Assembly: GCF_013177315.1 (NCBI RefSeq)
Contig: NZ_CP053661.1
Location: 4,774,001 to 4,838,000 of the forward strand
Source: Thermoleptolyngbya sichuanensis A183
GTDB taxonomy: Bacteria > Cyanobacteriota > Cyanobacteriia > Elainellales > Elainellaceae
DNA: 64,000 nucleotides
Reading direction: 5' to 3'
Shown here: in pieces, positions 45,068 to 49,455 of the stretch
How the letters are laid out: the number at the start of each line of letters is the position of its first letter
Position numbering within the stretch: position 1 is the first letter of the stretch
The notes under the pieces: model-generated
What the model was told of the DNA's origin: nothing
Database searches by the model: none
The model's input: the letters and a program-made list of their open reading frames with translations, nothing else
Position numbers and translations under genes: made by a program

Positions 45068-45146
45068 AGAAATCTAAGCGTACTGTCCTCATCTGTCTTA
45101 ATTTCAAGCAACTGGCGATCGCAATCTTACACAAGGGTTTGATGCA

Positions 45147-46217
45147 ATGGTTCAAAAAATTGCTTTATTCAACCACAAAGGCGGAGTTAGCAAAACCACA
45201 ACCACCTTCAATTTAGGCTGGATGCTTGCCTCAAAAGGGAAAAGGGTCATTCTTGTTGATAGCGATCCACAGTGTAATCTCACAGGCATGGCCTTGGGCG
45301 AGGAAACGGAAGATGACGAGGCCCGGATTCAAGAAATCTACAATACAGTATCAAACATAAAGACAGGTTTAGCTCCTGCATTTGAGTCACAACCCAGAGC
45401 CATTGAAGCTGTTGATTGTATTCCAGTATCAGGTCGAGATGATTTATTTCTATTACCTGGTCATGTTGGCTTTGCAGAGTATGAAGTGACACTTGGTATT
45501 GCTCAAGAGTTAAGTGGTTCGATTCAAGCTCTTAAAAACTTGCCAGGTTCCATCAATGATTTGTTTGAGAAGACGGCAGCTAAGTTTAATGCAGATTATA
45601 TTCTGATTGACATGAGTCCTAGCTTAGGCTCAATCAATCAGAACTTACTGATGATCAGCGATTTTTTCGTAGTGCCAACTACTGCTGACTTTTTCTCTGT
45701 AATGGCAATTGACTCTCTAGTTAAGGTTTTGCCTAGATGGCATGCCTGGGCTAGGTCAGCTAGTTCGCTTCAGATTCTGAAAGAAGCTAACTACCCTTTT
45801 CCTAATGTTAAGCTTCGCTTCCTAGGAACAATTGTGCAAAACTATAGAATTATACGAGGTAAAGAGACGGCTGCATTTCAAACTTGGATTGAGAAGATTG
45901 AGAAGTCTGTTGCTGAAAAACTGGTTCCGACTCTGAGACAGAGCGACATGATGTTGTCAGATTATGTGTATCGGGATCAGGGTCTTGGAGACAGCTTTTC
46001 TCTCGCAAAGATTTCTAACTTTAATAGCCTAATTGCTCTATCCCAGGAACATCGAACTCCAGTCTATGACCTAACCCCTGAGCAGTTAAGACAAACAGGT
46101 GTGGTCTTGGAGAAGAATCAGCAAAAGCAGGAAGAGTTTAGGAAAACCTTTTCAGATTTAGCAGACAAAGTTATTGCACTAAGCTCCGAAAGCTTCACGT
46201 ATGCAGTCAGCGCTTGA
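45147..46217 (+). CDS. ParA-family P-loop ATPase paired with a HEPN protein
   Basis: A 356-aa ParA/MinD-type ATPase. The deviant Walker A motif is HKGGVSKTT (residues 10-18), with VDSDPQCNLTG as the switch I region and ILIDMSPSLG as Walker B. No ParB or parS is found beside it. The stop codon overlaps the start of the next gene by 17 bp, so the two are translationally coupled. The coding sequence is visibly richer in A and T than its neighbours and contains no GCGATCGC octamer, suggesting acquisition from elsewhere. A partition role is unlikely without ParB; a regulatory ATPase for the HEPN protein is the working guess. Confidence 0.85.
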   Translation: MVQKIALFNHKGGVSKTTTTFNLGWMLASKGKRVILVDSDPQCNLTGMALGEETEDDEARIQEIYNTVSNIKTGLAPAFESQPRAIEAVDCIPVSGRDDLFLLPGHVGFAEYEVTLGIAQELSGSIQALKNLPGSINDLFEKTAAKFNADYILIDMSPSLGSINQNLLMISDFFVVPTTADFFSVMAIDSLVKVLPRWHAWARSASSLQILKEANYPFPNVKLRFLGTIVQNYRIIRGKETAAFQTWIEKIEKSVAEKLVPTLRQSDMMLSDYVYRDQGLGDSFSLAKISNFNSLIALSQEHRTPVYDLTPEQLRQTGVVLEKNQQKQEEFRKTFSDLADKVIALSSESFTYAVSA

Positions 46218-46959
46218 TCAGTTTCGCATCAGCATTAACCGCGTTCGAGACCTGATTGCGCTTCATAACTCTATCAAGGCTCAAGCCACTGGCGCACTTG
46301 ATATATCAGATATGTTGCGTGCTGCGCTCGTTCTTGCTGTAAGCGCATTAGACTACTACGTGCATGAAGTTGTGACGTTGGGAATGCTAGAAATTCATCG
46401 AGGAAATCGCTCTGAGCCAGCACCTTCGGCAAACACTGCTCAATCAGCGTTCTCACGCTTTCAAGTCTCGCTGGGTGGTGCGCGTCAAGATCGATTGACA
46501 GCAATTGATATTGCTTCTTGGCTTGAGGCTGAAATGCAGCAAATTCAGGGGTATGAGTTTCTCCAGAAGTCTCATACAATTTCAGATTTGATTCCCATAA
46601 TATCAAGCAGTATTCTTAATAAGTTGAATAATACGTCTTGGCTAGAAAGTGAAATTAGAGAGCGTTTAGGATATCAAAGCTTTCAGCAAGCAGACAAAAT
46701 TGCTGAAGCTATCAGGTACATTTCAGATAAAAAATTGTGGGACGAAGTAGCTATTCAAATGAGTAAGCCTGCAAAAGATATCAAACAAGAGTTAAATTCG
46801 ATCGTTGATCGAAGAAATAAAATTGCTCATGAAGCTGACATTGACCCAACTTTTAATATTGGCAGTCGATGGAATATTGATGAGGTGCTAGTTGGTGATG
46901 CGGTTGACTTTATTGAGAGGCTTGTTGAGAGTATTCACAAAGCGTTGCAAGTACAGTAA
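46201..46959 (+). CDS. HEPN-domain protein (RiboL-PSP-type), putative RNase
   Basis: A 252-aa protein with the two HEPN ends separated by a long insert. The N-terminal part has ALVLAVSALDYYVHEVVTLGM, and the C-terminal helix has DRRNKIAHEAD, an R-x4-H motif (Arg205, His210) that is the RNase active-site signature of HEPN proteins. It resembles the RiboL-PSP-HEPN group found in defence and toxin-antitoxin contexts. The start ATG at 46201 lies inside the ParA gene. An effector role controlled by ParA is inferred, not shown. Confidence 0.8.
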   Translation: MQSALDQFRISINRVRDLIALHNSIKAQATGALDISDMLRAALVLAVSALDYYVHEVVTLGMLEIHRGNRSEPAPSANTAQSAFSRFQVSLGGARQDRLTAIDIASWLEAEMQQIQGYEFLQKSHTISDLIPIISSSILNKLNNTSWLESEIRERLGYQSFQQADKIAEAIRYISDKKLWDEVAIQMSKPAKDIKQELNSIVDRRNKIAHEADIDPTFNIGSRWNIDEVLVGDAVDFIERLVESIHKALQVQ

Positions 46960-47223
46960 ACAAACTGGCTTGATCTGTCTGGAGAAAGGCTGAAAAAAGC
47001 TTTGGCTGGTCTTCTCTAGCCGCATTAACTATTAACTATTGTGCATTGTTCAGCTCATCCCCAAACCTTGCTCAAGTCCAGCCGGAACCCTGTCAGCACG
47101 GGGTCGCCGCTGAGGGAGTCGGGGTTTTCTAGAATCTGCACCGACTCACTGGGGCGGTAGATATAGGCGCGGCGATCGCCCCGATCCAGCAGCCAGCCCA
47201 ACTGAAAGCCCGGTTCCTGCTGA

Positions 47224-48740
47224 CTTTAGTTTGGACTAACTGGCATCACAATAATGCTCAACAGGATGCCATAAAGAATCTGCTCAACCGTTCATAACAG
47301 TTGAACTTAAGGAATTGGATACAATCCTGCTCGCAGTTAAGCTGCTGTTGCAACCGGACTGTTCAGGGATTGTTCGGATGTCTTGCGTTTCGAGGCTCGT
47401 TTTTTGACCATCGGATAGCAGGGACGAGGAGTTGGCTTGTGCCCCTTGCCTCGTCCTGGCGATTTACCACGAGGTTTAGGCGCAGGAGCAGGGGTGCCAA
47501 TCGCTGCCAAAATGCCTGCAAACGCTTGTGCGACCCGACCCGGAGTCAACGTTTCTTGCGGTGCCTGCCAGGGCAAGGGGTGGTCAGTACAGTCCTTTCG
47601 CGCTAACCACAACTGCCAACTGAGCAACGGCATCAGGCTGCTCCACTGTTCGGTTGCCGATACAGAACTGAACTGGGGATGTGTCCAATATAGCCTCTGC
47701 TTGGCAAAGCGATACCAGTGTTCAATGGCAAAGCGACGGAGGTAGTGCAACCACAGGGTTTCTAACGGAGGCATCTGCTCACCCAGCCAAACTAACCACA
47801 AAGGAGCCAAGCGTCGCGTGCTGCTCTGTGTCTCCAGCACCTCCACGCGCAACACTTCCATTGCCCGTTTGGGGGATTTGCGGAAATGGTATGCACTCCA
47901 ACGACTGACCCGCACTCGTCCCCAGTTGGGATCATCGACTTCAACGGTTTCGACCGGGACACTCCAAGTGTCAGGGTCATTGAGTTTCATCTTATGTCCA
48001 TGCTTGGCAGGTGCGCCTCGCCCTCGATACGCTGGGGGCGCGCCATAGACACATCGATTGGATGTAACCCGCAGCAGCAAGTCTGCCTCAATCCCTGCCG
48101 TTTGGTTGACAAAACTGGCATTGCCGTACCCTCGGTCGTAGATCGCCAACGGACGCACCGCTAACTGCCGAGTCACTTGTTTGAGTTGGAATGCCGCTTT
48201 ACTGGCGGGTGTTTCAAAGCTGGTGATGCGCTCATGCCGCAATGGTAATGCCCAACTGCCCCTGTCTTCAGCAATCCAGGCTAAGGTACTGTAGTTTTGT
48301 CCGGCTATCGGGGCATGTCCTGTTCTGCCTGATAAGGTGCGGTCTTTCAAACGCCTGGCAGCAGGACGGTTCCACCGACTCGCATCACCTGCCAACAACG
48401 GTTGCTGCTGAGTCGGTATCTGCTGCACCAACAGCTTCAGCACCTTTGATCGGGGTAGGCGGCTATCGCGCAACGCTTCATAGGTGCTCGACCACTGGCG
48501 ACGAAAGACAGGACTCTGCGATAGCCTCACAAACGACACGATGCACGCACTCACTAACACGGCATCCATCAGATCAAACAGGGCATCTCTGGCGTTTCCC
48601 AAGCTGGCATACAACGTTTGGCGAAATTGCTGAAGTTCGTTGAAAATCATGGGGTCAATGTTGGTTGTACTTCATTGACCTTACGGCAGTCGGTGCTTCT
48701 CATTGACTGCCTTCCTCTTCACCATTAGTCCAAACTAAAG
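47224..48740 (-). mobile_element. Insertion sequence copy 3, 1517 bp
   Basis: The same length, terminal repeats and transposase as copies 1 and 2. The direct repeat here is TGCTGA, 6 bp (47218-47223 and 48741-48746), one shorter than at the other two copies. It interrupts the Uma2 gene, and all three copies share the same orientation. Confidence 0.95.
47337..48650 (-). CDS. DDE transposase of IS copy 3 (IS4/IS701-like)
   Basis: An intact 437-aa protein identical in sequence to those of copies 1 and 2, including the presumed DDE residues and the basic C-terminal tail. Confidence 0.93.
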   Translation of the reverse strand: MIFNELQQFRQTLYASLGNARDALFDLMDAVLVSACIVSFVRLSQSPVFRRQWSSTYEALRDSRLPRSKVLKLLVQQIPTQQQPLLAGDASRWNRPAARRLKDRTLSGRTGHAPIAGQNYSTLAWIAEDRGSWALPLRHERITSFETPASKAAFQLKQVTRQLAVRPLAIYDRGYGNASFVNQTAGIEADLLLRVTSNRCVYGAPPAYRGRGAPAKHGHKMKLNDPDTWSVPVETVEVDDPNWGRVRVSRWSAYHFRKSPKRAMEVLRVEVLETQSSTRRLAPLWLVWLGEQMPPLETLWLHYLRRFAIEHWYRFAKQRLYWTHPQFSSVSATEQWSSLMPLLSWQLWLARKDCTDHPLPWQAPQETLTPGRVAQAFAGILAAIGTPAPAPKPRGKSPGRGKGHKPTPRPCYPMVKKRASKRKTSEQSLNSPVATAA

Positions 48741-49455
48741 TGCTGATATTCGCGCATTTTGGCTTACAGGGTTTCCAGGCTGTCGCTGGGCGATCGCAGC
48801 TCAATCACCACATCGGGACAAATCGGCGCAAATTGCTCCTGCTGTTCTGGGGTCAGCGCGTTCCACCGATCCAGCCGAATCCACGCCGCATCGGGCGATC
48901 GCTTTGCCCCGGTAGACAGCTTGAACCCCGCGCTGGAGCTAAACACAACGTCCTGCCCAGTTTGCTCGTTCCAAACATAAAGCTGACCAATAATGCCTGC
49001 TTCGCGATTGCCAGTGCCAGAACCAACAGGCGACATAATCACTAGATCTCCATCTGCATTTTGTTCGATTCGCAAGTCGCGATTGACCTGGCAAAACTCA
49101 AAAAACTGCTCGTCGGTCATGGGCAGCGACGGGGGCAGGTGGACGGTGAACGCAGCAGGGGCGATCGCCCTTGGGGTGGAACGTTCAGACTGCATGGGTT
49201 GAGGGGTCGAGGGGTGAGGGGTTGAGAGATGAGAGTCGGCAGGCAAAATTTCGGCCGAGCGCTGGCAAAGCGGCGGGGATAGCTTCACAATAGACGATGG
49301 AGACAGTGGGCTACCTGAAAACGCCCAATCGGTGAACTAAACGCAATCTAAACGCAATATTATGAAGTGTCGGGTAAAGTATCGGGTGCAGGATGCCAGT
49401 TTTGCAGCCCGCTTCCCGAATTCTGACCTCTGAATCCCTAACCCAATAAACCCTT

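Follow-up and report, generated by a model that had tools for sequence, protein, structure and literature searches.

A gene pair consisting of a ParA/Soj-type ATPase and a HEPN protein of the MAE_18760 family was predicted in a 2013 survey to be a toxin-antitoxin dyad, with the ATPase as the antitoxin and the HEPN RNase as the toxin (Anantharaman et al. 2013, PMC3710099). The same survey lists RiboL-PSP-type HEPN proteins with ParB operons, and its excerpts available to us mention neither phage carriage nor effector swapping for the ParA/Soj-HEPN dyad (PMC3710099). Here, we describe a ParA-type ATPase gene overlapping the gene of a RiboL-PSP-type HEPN protein, located in a stretch of 64,000 nucleotides (hereafter, the window) from the cyanobacterium Thermoleptolyngbya sichuanensis A183, whose genome is a single contig of 5.5 Mb (NZ_CP053661.1; the window covers positions 4,774,001 to 4,838,000). 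We consider it probable that the two genes form a toxin-control module gained by horizontal transfer, of the toxin-antitoxin or abortive infection kind, in which a HEPN RNase effector is restrained by ParA.

The features of the pair, supported by open reading frames (ORFs) and the evidence given in brackets, are as follows:

45147..46217, + strand: ParA-type (SIMIBI/AAA_31) ATPase of the long-ParA clade, 356 amino acids, ATG start (ORF, Pfam, AlphaFold2, tree)
45177..45200, + strand: deviant Walker A motif KGGVSKTT, ParA residues 11-18 (sequence; KGGV[SG]KTT in 87/96 paired ParAs)
46201..46217, + strand: ParA/HEPN gene overlap, 17 bp (ORFs; identical 17 bp in 64/78 relatives)
46201..46959, + strand: HEPN protein of RiboL-PSP type, predicted RNase effector, 252 amino acids, ATG start (ORF, PF18735, structure comparison)
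46516..46617, + strand: HEPN internal tandem duplication, copy 1, residues 106-139 (self-alignment score against shuffles)
46636..46737, + strand: HEPN internal tandem duplication, copy 2, residues 146-179 (self-alignment score against shuffles)
46813..46830, + strand: HEPN catalytic motif R205-N-x3-H210 (sequence; 15/15 aligned, 96/96 paired HEPNs)

An initial annotation, made from the letters of the window, had described a ParA-HEPN pair with a 17-bp overlap, an intact R-x4-H motif and no ParB. The ORFs and Pfam bear out the overlapping pair; R205 and H210 are read in the DNA and are invariant in all 15 aligned proteins, and no ParB is seen in the ORF list around the pair, with Pfam run on five of those proteins only.

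Comparison with the 2013 dyad

The pair of the window resembles the 2013 dyad in its make-up, with a HEPN gene adjoining that of a ParA/Soj-like ATPase. According to the excerpts of the survey, the HEPN of the dyad belongs to the MAE_18760 family, whereas the window HEPN matches HEPN_RiboL-PSP (PF18735; E 1.9e-16, 60.9 bits with a Pfam cut-off of 28.4) and remains sub-threshold for PF18737 (23.0 bits, cut-off 26.8). ParA was found beside none of the PF18737 (MAE_28990) HEPN genes at 30 cyanobacterial loci (best matches in 54 genomes) whose flanks were examined. Since the window HEPN falls under another Pfam family and the 30 PF18737 loci have no ParA in the flanks examined, the pairing is of the same kind as in the 2013 dyad, while the same family is not established. 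Two HEPN relatives do exceed the PF18737 cut-off (G045, 30.6 bits; G072, 27.8 bits), so the border between the HEPN families is soft.

The initial annotation could not match the pair to a named system. PADLOC 2.0.0 indeed has no model for it: the window ParA aligns with no more than 38 and 55 residues of two PDC-M28B models, with no whole-protein system match. The pair is nevertheless not wholly unnamed, given the toxin-antitoxin prediction for ParA/Soj-HEPN dyads in the excerpts of the 2013 survey (PMC3710099), which is also the only place in the open-access literature where we found HEPN with Soj. PD-T4-2 was considered as a HEPN relative and rejected, as the window HEPN matches only PD-T4-2_B, at E 0.022 (PADLOC 2.0.0); the domains of PD-T4-2 are not described in the excerpts of PMC9519451.

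Conservation and co-inheritance of the pair

HEPN relatives are present in 29 of 386 genomes of the phylum, representing 21 of 142 genera, with full-length matches being 62-88% identical. A scan of GTDB contigs provided 97 HEPN loci, of which the best 80 were analyzed (79 with cyanobacterial titles and one from Acidithiobacillus). A lack of co-occurrence in other genomes had been named beforehand as a refutation, which did not come about: a ParA gene lies just upstream (within 2.5 kb) of HEPN in 78 of these 80 loci. At one of the two remaining loci, the contig ends (L140), and the other has a partial HEPN (L166). The exact 17-bp overlap is found in 64 of the 78 paired loci, and ParA is also present in 4/4 viral contigs from the HEPN scan.

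For a comparison of distances, we used 109 pairs with a ParA of at least 330 and a HEPN of at least 190 amino acids; removal of identical ParAs left 96 pairs. ParA and HEPN distances correlate with r = 0.89, a value not reached in any of 1000 permutations. The same correlation outside the cyanobacterial set is r = 0.82 (18 pairs, L089 included). We conclude that ParA-HEPN is a conserved unit whose pairing is far beyond chance.

The HEPN protein

The R[NDH]xxxH motif is kept in 96/96 HEPNs paired with ParA. Two stretches of the protein that lie 40 residues apart align over 34 residues as an internal duplication (score 63, compared with a shuffled mean of 20.5 and a standard deviation of 4.1). 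The duplication scored above nearly all shuffles (0 or 1 of 200 as high) in each of the 12 long HEPN forms tested; relatives of about 200 amino acids are without the duplicated stretch.

A model of the window HEPN had a predicted local distance difference test (pLDDT) value of 80.9. A sequence search for solved HEPN relatives gave none below E 0.3. In a second structure comparison (VIA), the ten best rows for the model had Z of 8.3-9.2, with the next row at 7.2, and eight of the ten are titled HEPN, a result to be read with the tool's own caution on helical bundles. The remaining two, 1jog and 7bxo, we take to be HEPN-type systems as well. Several top structure matches are titled HEPN-MNT complexes or HEPN toxins, and HEPN-MNT is likewise a two-gene operon of a HEPN and an enzyme-type partner. 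The partner there is a nucleotidyltransferase instead of ParA, and the chains have 124-151 residues, compared with 252 amino acids and a duplication here.

The ParA protein and its ATP-binding site

The window ParA exceeds the Pfam cut-offs of AAA_31 (E 1.3e-30) and CbiA (E 2.8e-15). The solved structure nearest to its AlphaFold2 model (pLDDT 85.7) is 3pg5, an uncharacterised protein, followed by Soj, ParA and McdA. The ParA fold and the deviant Walker A motif are thus shared with the ParABS and McdAB systems, whereas the window ParA is longer, belongs to a separate clade and has HEPN where ParB or McdB would be. The locus is not a canonical ParABS system either: HEPN adjoins ParA instead of ParB, and the protein lies outside the short-ParA clade (Shimodaira-Hasegawa-like approximate likelihood ratio test (SH-aLRT) 99).

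One could imagine that the pair serves positioning or partition and that HEPN, without being toxic, acts as the adaptor of its ParA, in the way that McdB and ParB are adaptors of McdA and ParA. Adaptors are usually encoded beside their ParA, and the presence of Soj, ParA and McdA among the nearest structures would agree with such a role. Against it, the catalytic motif is kept in every one of the 96 HEPNs; the window ParA is placed outside the short-ParA clade, and other branches pair ParA with SIR2, RelA_SpoT or Schlafen proteins (see below). We therefore regard this explanation as very improbable.

Nine of the 96 paired ParAs deviate from KGGV[SG]KTT. One of them is cut at a contig edge (L141) and three (L064, L111 and L163) retain the P-loop lysine, while the lysine is lost beside an intact HEPN motif in five: L073, L116 and three ParAs from Crocosphaera metagenome-assembled genomes (MAGs; L117, L119 and L123). 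In the three Crocosphaera pairs, Walker A is destroyed, yet the ParA frame is open and under constraint, with HEPN constrained more strongly. The ratio of nonsynonymous to synonymous substitution rates (dN/dS, by a simple counting method) is 0.33-0.41 for these ParAs and 0.11-0.21 for their HEPNs. For pairs that retain Walker A, taken as a comparison, the ParA/HEPN values were 0.15/0.12, 0.16/0.19, 0.17/0.08 and 0.10/0.06 (dS being saturated in the fourth), and 0.48/0.80 for a Microcystis pair that is very close. The Crocosphaera values indicate that ParA is relaxed but not free.

The P-loop-less Crocosphaera ParAs fit a binding partner, as expected of an antitoxin, that need not hydrolyse ATP, and they speak against ATPase activity being required in every lineage. 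The description of the pair as an 'ATPase-controlled' HEPN is thus uncertain, with 5/96 paired ParAs lacking the lysine next to an intact HEPN motif. These same proteins would allow one to tell an antitoxin role apart from ATPase activity.

Other partners of the long-ParA clade

The ParA was also aligned with viral contigs (best 80 of 430 confirmed matches), to which plasmid and phage records were added, and was searched for in 398 Pseudomonadota genomes, of which 26 had a match at E 1e-40, at 27 loci in total. Proteins with at least 125 bits were called long ParAs (n = 97, including near-copies and doubly fetched loci such as L174/L192 and L175/L198) and those below 100 bits short ParAs (n = 25, all from the viral scan); the cyanobacterial HEPN loci were set aside. 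Partner profiles were built from loci of the same set, and a partner had to share the strand of ParA. A recognised partner was found for 54 of the 97 long ParAs, near-copies included, versus 0 of the 25 short ones. The partners are HEPN (20), Schlafen-AlbA_2 (16), SIR2 (10), RelA/SpoT (6) and an unnamed family (2), and most of their genes overlap ParA by 4-17 bp or nearly abut it. Pfam analysis of partner representatives gave SIR2_2 (E 2.5e-23 and 1.3e-18), RelA_SpoT (7.4e-18 and 1.1e-15) and SLFN_AlbA_2 (1.9e-14); HEPN_RiboL-PSP was over the cut-off in 4/4 HEPN representatives and in L190.

A quick maximum-likelihood tree built from 110 ParAs places the long ParAs together on one side of a branch (SH-aLRT 99). 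Partner types follow this tree: they require 13 changes, compared with a shuffled mean of 62.1 and with none of 200 shuffles as low; HEPN as a label takes two changes. Long branches were flagged in this tree, which makes its deep joins unsure. The occurrence of different effector types across one ParA clade is the new point of this analysis. No description of a ParA with interchangeable effectors was found in the open-access literature, which leaves closed journals and most preprints outside, and no open-access paper was found on ParA, Schlafen and SIR2 together.

SIR2-family genes follow a long ParA, overlapping or nearly abutting it, at L183, L184, L229, L231, L236, L237, L239, L243, L290 and L292. 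A DNA methyltransferase gene is located just upstream of ParA-SIR2 in a Salmonella Infantis plasmid (L183) and a DEAD/DEAH helicase gene in a Spirosoma plasmid (L184). The L183 SIR2 protein, partner of a sister ParA, matches the models of the anti-phage effectors ThsA (E 1.2e-21) and Dsr2 (1e-12), whereas the partner of the window ParA is HEPN. To our knowledge, a ParA partner is not part of these named SIR2 systems.

RelA/SpoT-domain proteins come directly after a long ParA at L221, L222, L224, L225, L228 and L273 (Pfam was run on two of the six), an arrangement possibly similar to toxSAS. The RelA_SpoT matches given above are the likeness to the toxSAS/CapRel class, in which, as far as we know, the antitoxins are not ParA proteins.

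Schlafen-AlbA_2/recG C-terminal-like genes precede a long ParA, mostly with a 4-bp overlap, at L059, L060, L272, L275, L276, L278-L282, L284-L288 and L291 (Pfam on one); such pairs occur in cyanobacteria and Pseudomonadota. The unnamed partner family (L217:9063-9707 and L271:2548-3279, after ParA) has no Pfam match and shares the motif F-[IL]-D-[IV]-L-G-F, located early in the sequence; our impression is that it is perhaps cyclase-like. One long ParA (L058) is near an integron-integrase-like gene, by sequence reading, and another (L185) is near recombinase and 'mobile mystery' genes, surroundings that suggest cassette-like mobility.

The pair on plasmids and phages

A HEPN relative is encoded on thirteen Burkholderia plasmids (one copy being partial), 9 of which are typed as conjugative. 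A ParA relative was found on the same thirteen plasmids, and the pair was viewed in its surroundings on one B. glumae plasmid. The pair also occurs in Acidithiobacillus. In the filamentous Pseudomonas phage WX-TY, it is present as two 'hypothetical' genes; nothing relevant on this phage was found in the open-access literature. The Pf1/Pf5-type prophage record AY324828, judged from its length and gene content, is presumably the Pf5 prophage of PA14. Its ParA is annotated as 'similar to Soj (ParA)', and a HEPN frame (L177, positions 411-935 of the record, - strand) has no annotated coding sequence, keeps R-x4-H and is C-terminally shorter than in phage WX-TY. In the sections of the Pf5 paper at hand, PA14_49030 is listed as a 'putative regulatory protein' and no HEPN is listed (PMC3820363); elsewhere, the ParA gene is described as unique to Pf5 (PMC7379572).

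Carriage on conjugative plasmids and prophages is what one would expect of a toxin-antitoxin module acting by addiction alone, which would retain plasmids and prophages in the cell without dedicated phage sensing, chromosomal copies such as that of the window being relics of passage. The near-constant ParA-HEPN pairing and the tolerance, in some lineages, of a ParA without an ATP site agree with this as well. The effectors of one ParA clade differ, though, a pattern met more typically where defence systems share a sensor, and chromosomal copies are widespread (the 29 genomes and 21 genera above), although this by itself does not exclude addiction. On balance, we find the addiction reading rather unlikely, though the most serious of the competitors.

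Nineteen ParAs of phages, viral contigs or plasmids, all without a recognised effector, group beside the HEPN clade in the tree, the order of the fork being unresolved. In Salmonella phage SE1, a partnerless ParA gene is located downstream of a CI-like repressor on the same strand. Further partnerless long ParAs, from tailed phages and prophages, follow a CI-like repressor gene at L181, L186, L200-L204, L206, L208 and L210. The genes upstream of those at L181, L186, L202, L204, L208 and L210 contain HTH_3 in 6/6 cases and Peptidase_S24 in three (Pfam). In phage lambda, rexAB occupies that position downstream of the CI repressor.

Such locations, together with the 'putative regulatory protein' label of the Pf5-type record, could also mean that ParA is a phage life-cycle regulator that controls replication or lysogeny in Pf5 and P22-like phages, HEPN being an accessory. 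In its favour, the Pf5 replicative form was reportedly blocked by a plasmid that carried the twelve Pf5 genes from coaB to PA14_49050 (PMC3820363). With twelve genes on the plasmid, however, the effect is not assigned to ParA, and no phage family is among the 25 commonest of the 142 Pfam families of 116 flanking genes at 23 cyanobacterial loci. We give this explanation little credence.

Proposed mode of action

In the toxin-control module that we favour, HEPN would be an R-x4-H endoribonuclease expected to cut RNA and halt growth. ParA, encoded by the first gene of the overlapping pair, would bind HEPN and restrain it as an antitoxin. In most lineages, an ATP-dependent, DNA-bound ParA dimer may detect a disturbance, for instance the DNA of a phage or plasmid, or damage to the nucleoid; HEPN would then be released, leading to abortive infection or superinfection exclusion.

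Several points weigh against such a module. ParA is much larger than the usual antitoxins, and Foldseek returned no significant structure match for the HEPN model, none being below E 0.3. The genes flanking the pair in cyanobacteria are mostly ordinary among the commonest Pfam families. No recognised effector was found for 43 of the 97 long ParAs; some of these are start-call artefacts (L283 shows a Schlafen-type gene), and others look truly alone. Asymmetric decay of toxin and antitoxin was considered and found no support: of 80 loci, 64 have both genes intact, 6 only ParA, 4 only HEPN and 6 neither, counts that take in contig edges and low-coverage MAGs.

The initial annotation had proposed a defence or abortive infection module. 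In favour of this, the pair is a conserved mobile unit found on phages and plasmids, and its ParA clade also has SIR2, RelA/SpoT and Schlafen partners; on the other side, it is not wholly unnamed and, in cyanobacteria, sits in no clear island. A ParA family located on phages and plasmids beside various likely toxins points to a defence or toxin-control system that is modular and has hardly been studied, in which ParA-effector pairs may serve defence. More tentatively, and with the chances somewhat against it, we propose that an undescribed modular abortive infection system is built around the long-ParA clade, whose members would provide the sensing and the restraint in common, while the effectors, of at least four kinds (HEPN RNase, SIR2 NADase, RelA/SpoT synthetase and Schlafen-AlbA), would be interchangeable. 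The partnerless phage ParAs downstream of CI would, in this view, be lysogen-expressed immunity or antidote versions that protect against ParA-effector modules of hosts and of rival phages.

If true, a ParA-type switch, known from plasmid and organelle movement, would also guard the cell, and one ATPase family would check several unrelated toxins. The ParA gene of Pf5 (P. aeruginosa PA14) and its neighbouring HEPN frame would gain a function, and the antitoxin role predicted for ParA/Soj in 2013 would become directly testable.

Acquisition and surroundings of the pair

The G+C content of the pair is 41.8%, compared with a window mean of 55.6%. The AT-rich patch noticed at the outset is real: no stretch of this size in the window is richer in AT, with 0/622 sliding windows (1.8 kb, 100-bp steps) as low in G+C. 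The sequence GCGATCGC (HIP1), said to be missing from the patch, is indeed absent from the pair (gap 45115-47172, 2057 bp), but the absence is not distinctive, as the gap ranks only sixth among those of the window (the window edge truncates one of them). HIP1 depletion was therefore dropped as a sign of import, and the case rests on G+C, synteny and absence from relatives. The GH15-type gene 5' of the pair is conserved in a same-genus genome, whose DNA similarity to the window stops at the stop codon of this gene. In a ParA profile search of 16 relatives, the gene was found neither in the same-genus genome (85% complete) nor in 14 of the 15 others, the single match being elsewhere. By all signs, the ParA-HEPN pair was horizontally acquired.

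The broken nuclease gene and insertion sequence (IS) reported beside the pair were recovered as two pieces of a Uma2 gene, a member of a putative restriction endonuclease family, with a DDE_5 transposase in between. These neighbours, outside the module, are:

about 47055..47225, - strand: broken Uma2 gene, C-terminal remnant (translation read, no profile)
47337..48650, - strand: DDE_5 transposase of the IS within the Uma2 gene (ORF, Pfam)
48764..49288, - strand: broken Uma2 gene, N-terminal part (Uma2 E 1.1e-24, profile 2-109 of 172)

The flank sample consisted of 148 proteins at 23 cyanobacterial loci, from 280 genes at 43 loci, of which 116 were used, with mostly the smallest ORFs omitted. 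A location in a defence island, which the initial annotation had suggested checking, did not hold up: the cyanobacterial flanks are mixed and form no clear island, though Uma2 genes are common there. By Pfam, 13 of the 116 proteins are Uma2, the loci not being independent; in general, Uma2 gave 844 matches in 12 genomes (about 60 Mb), an estimated 1-2% of genes. Among the 25 of 49 PADLOC families listed for these proteins (E 1e-15), PDC-S03 came first with 9 members, perhaps the Uma2 genes; mad2 (3 members) and a few restriction-modification and methyltransferase models are also on the list. The window shares with the flanks of other cyanobacterial pairs (ORFs of at least 110 amino acids) only the Uma2 gene, in an 8-locus group that includes the window, and two single-locus matches.

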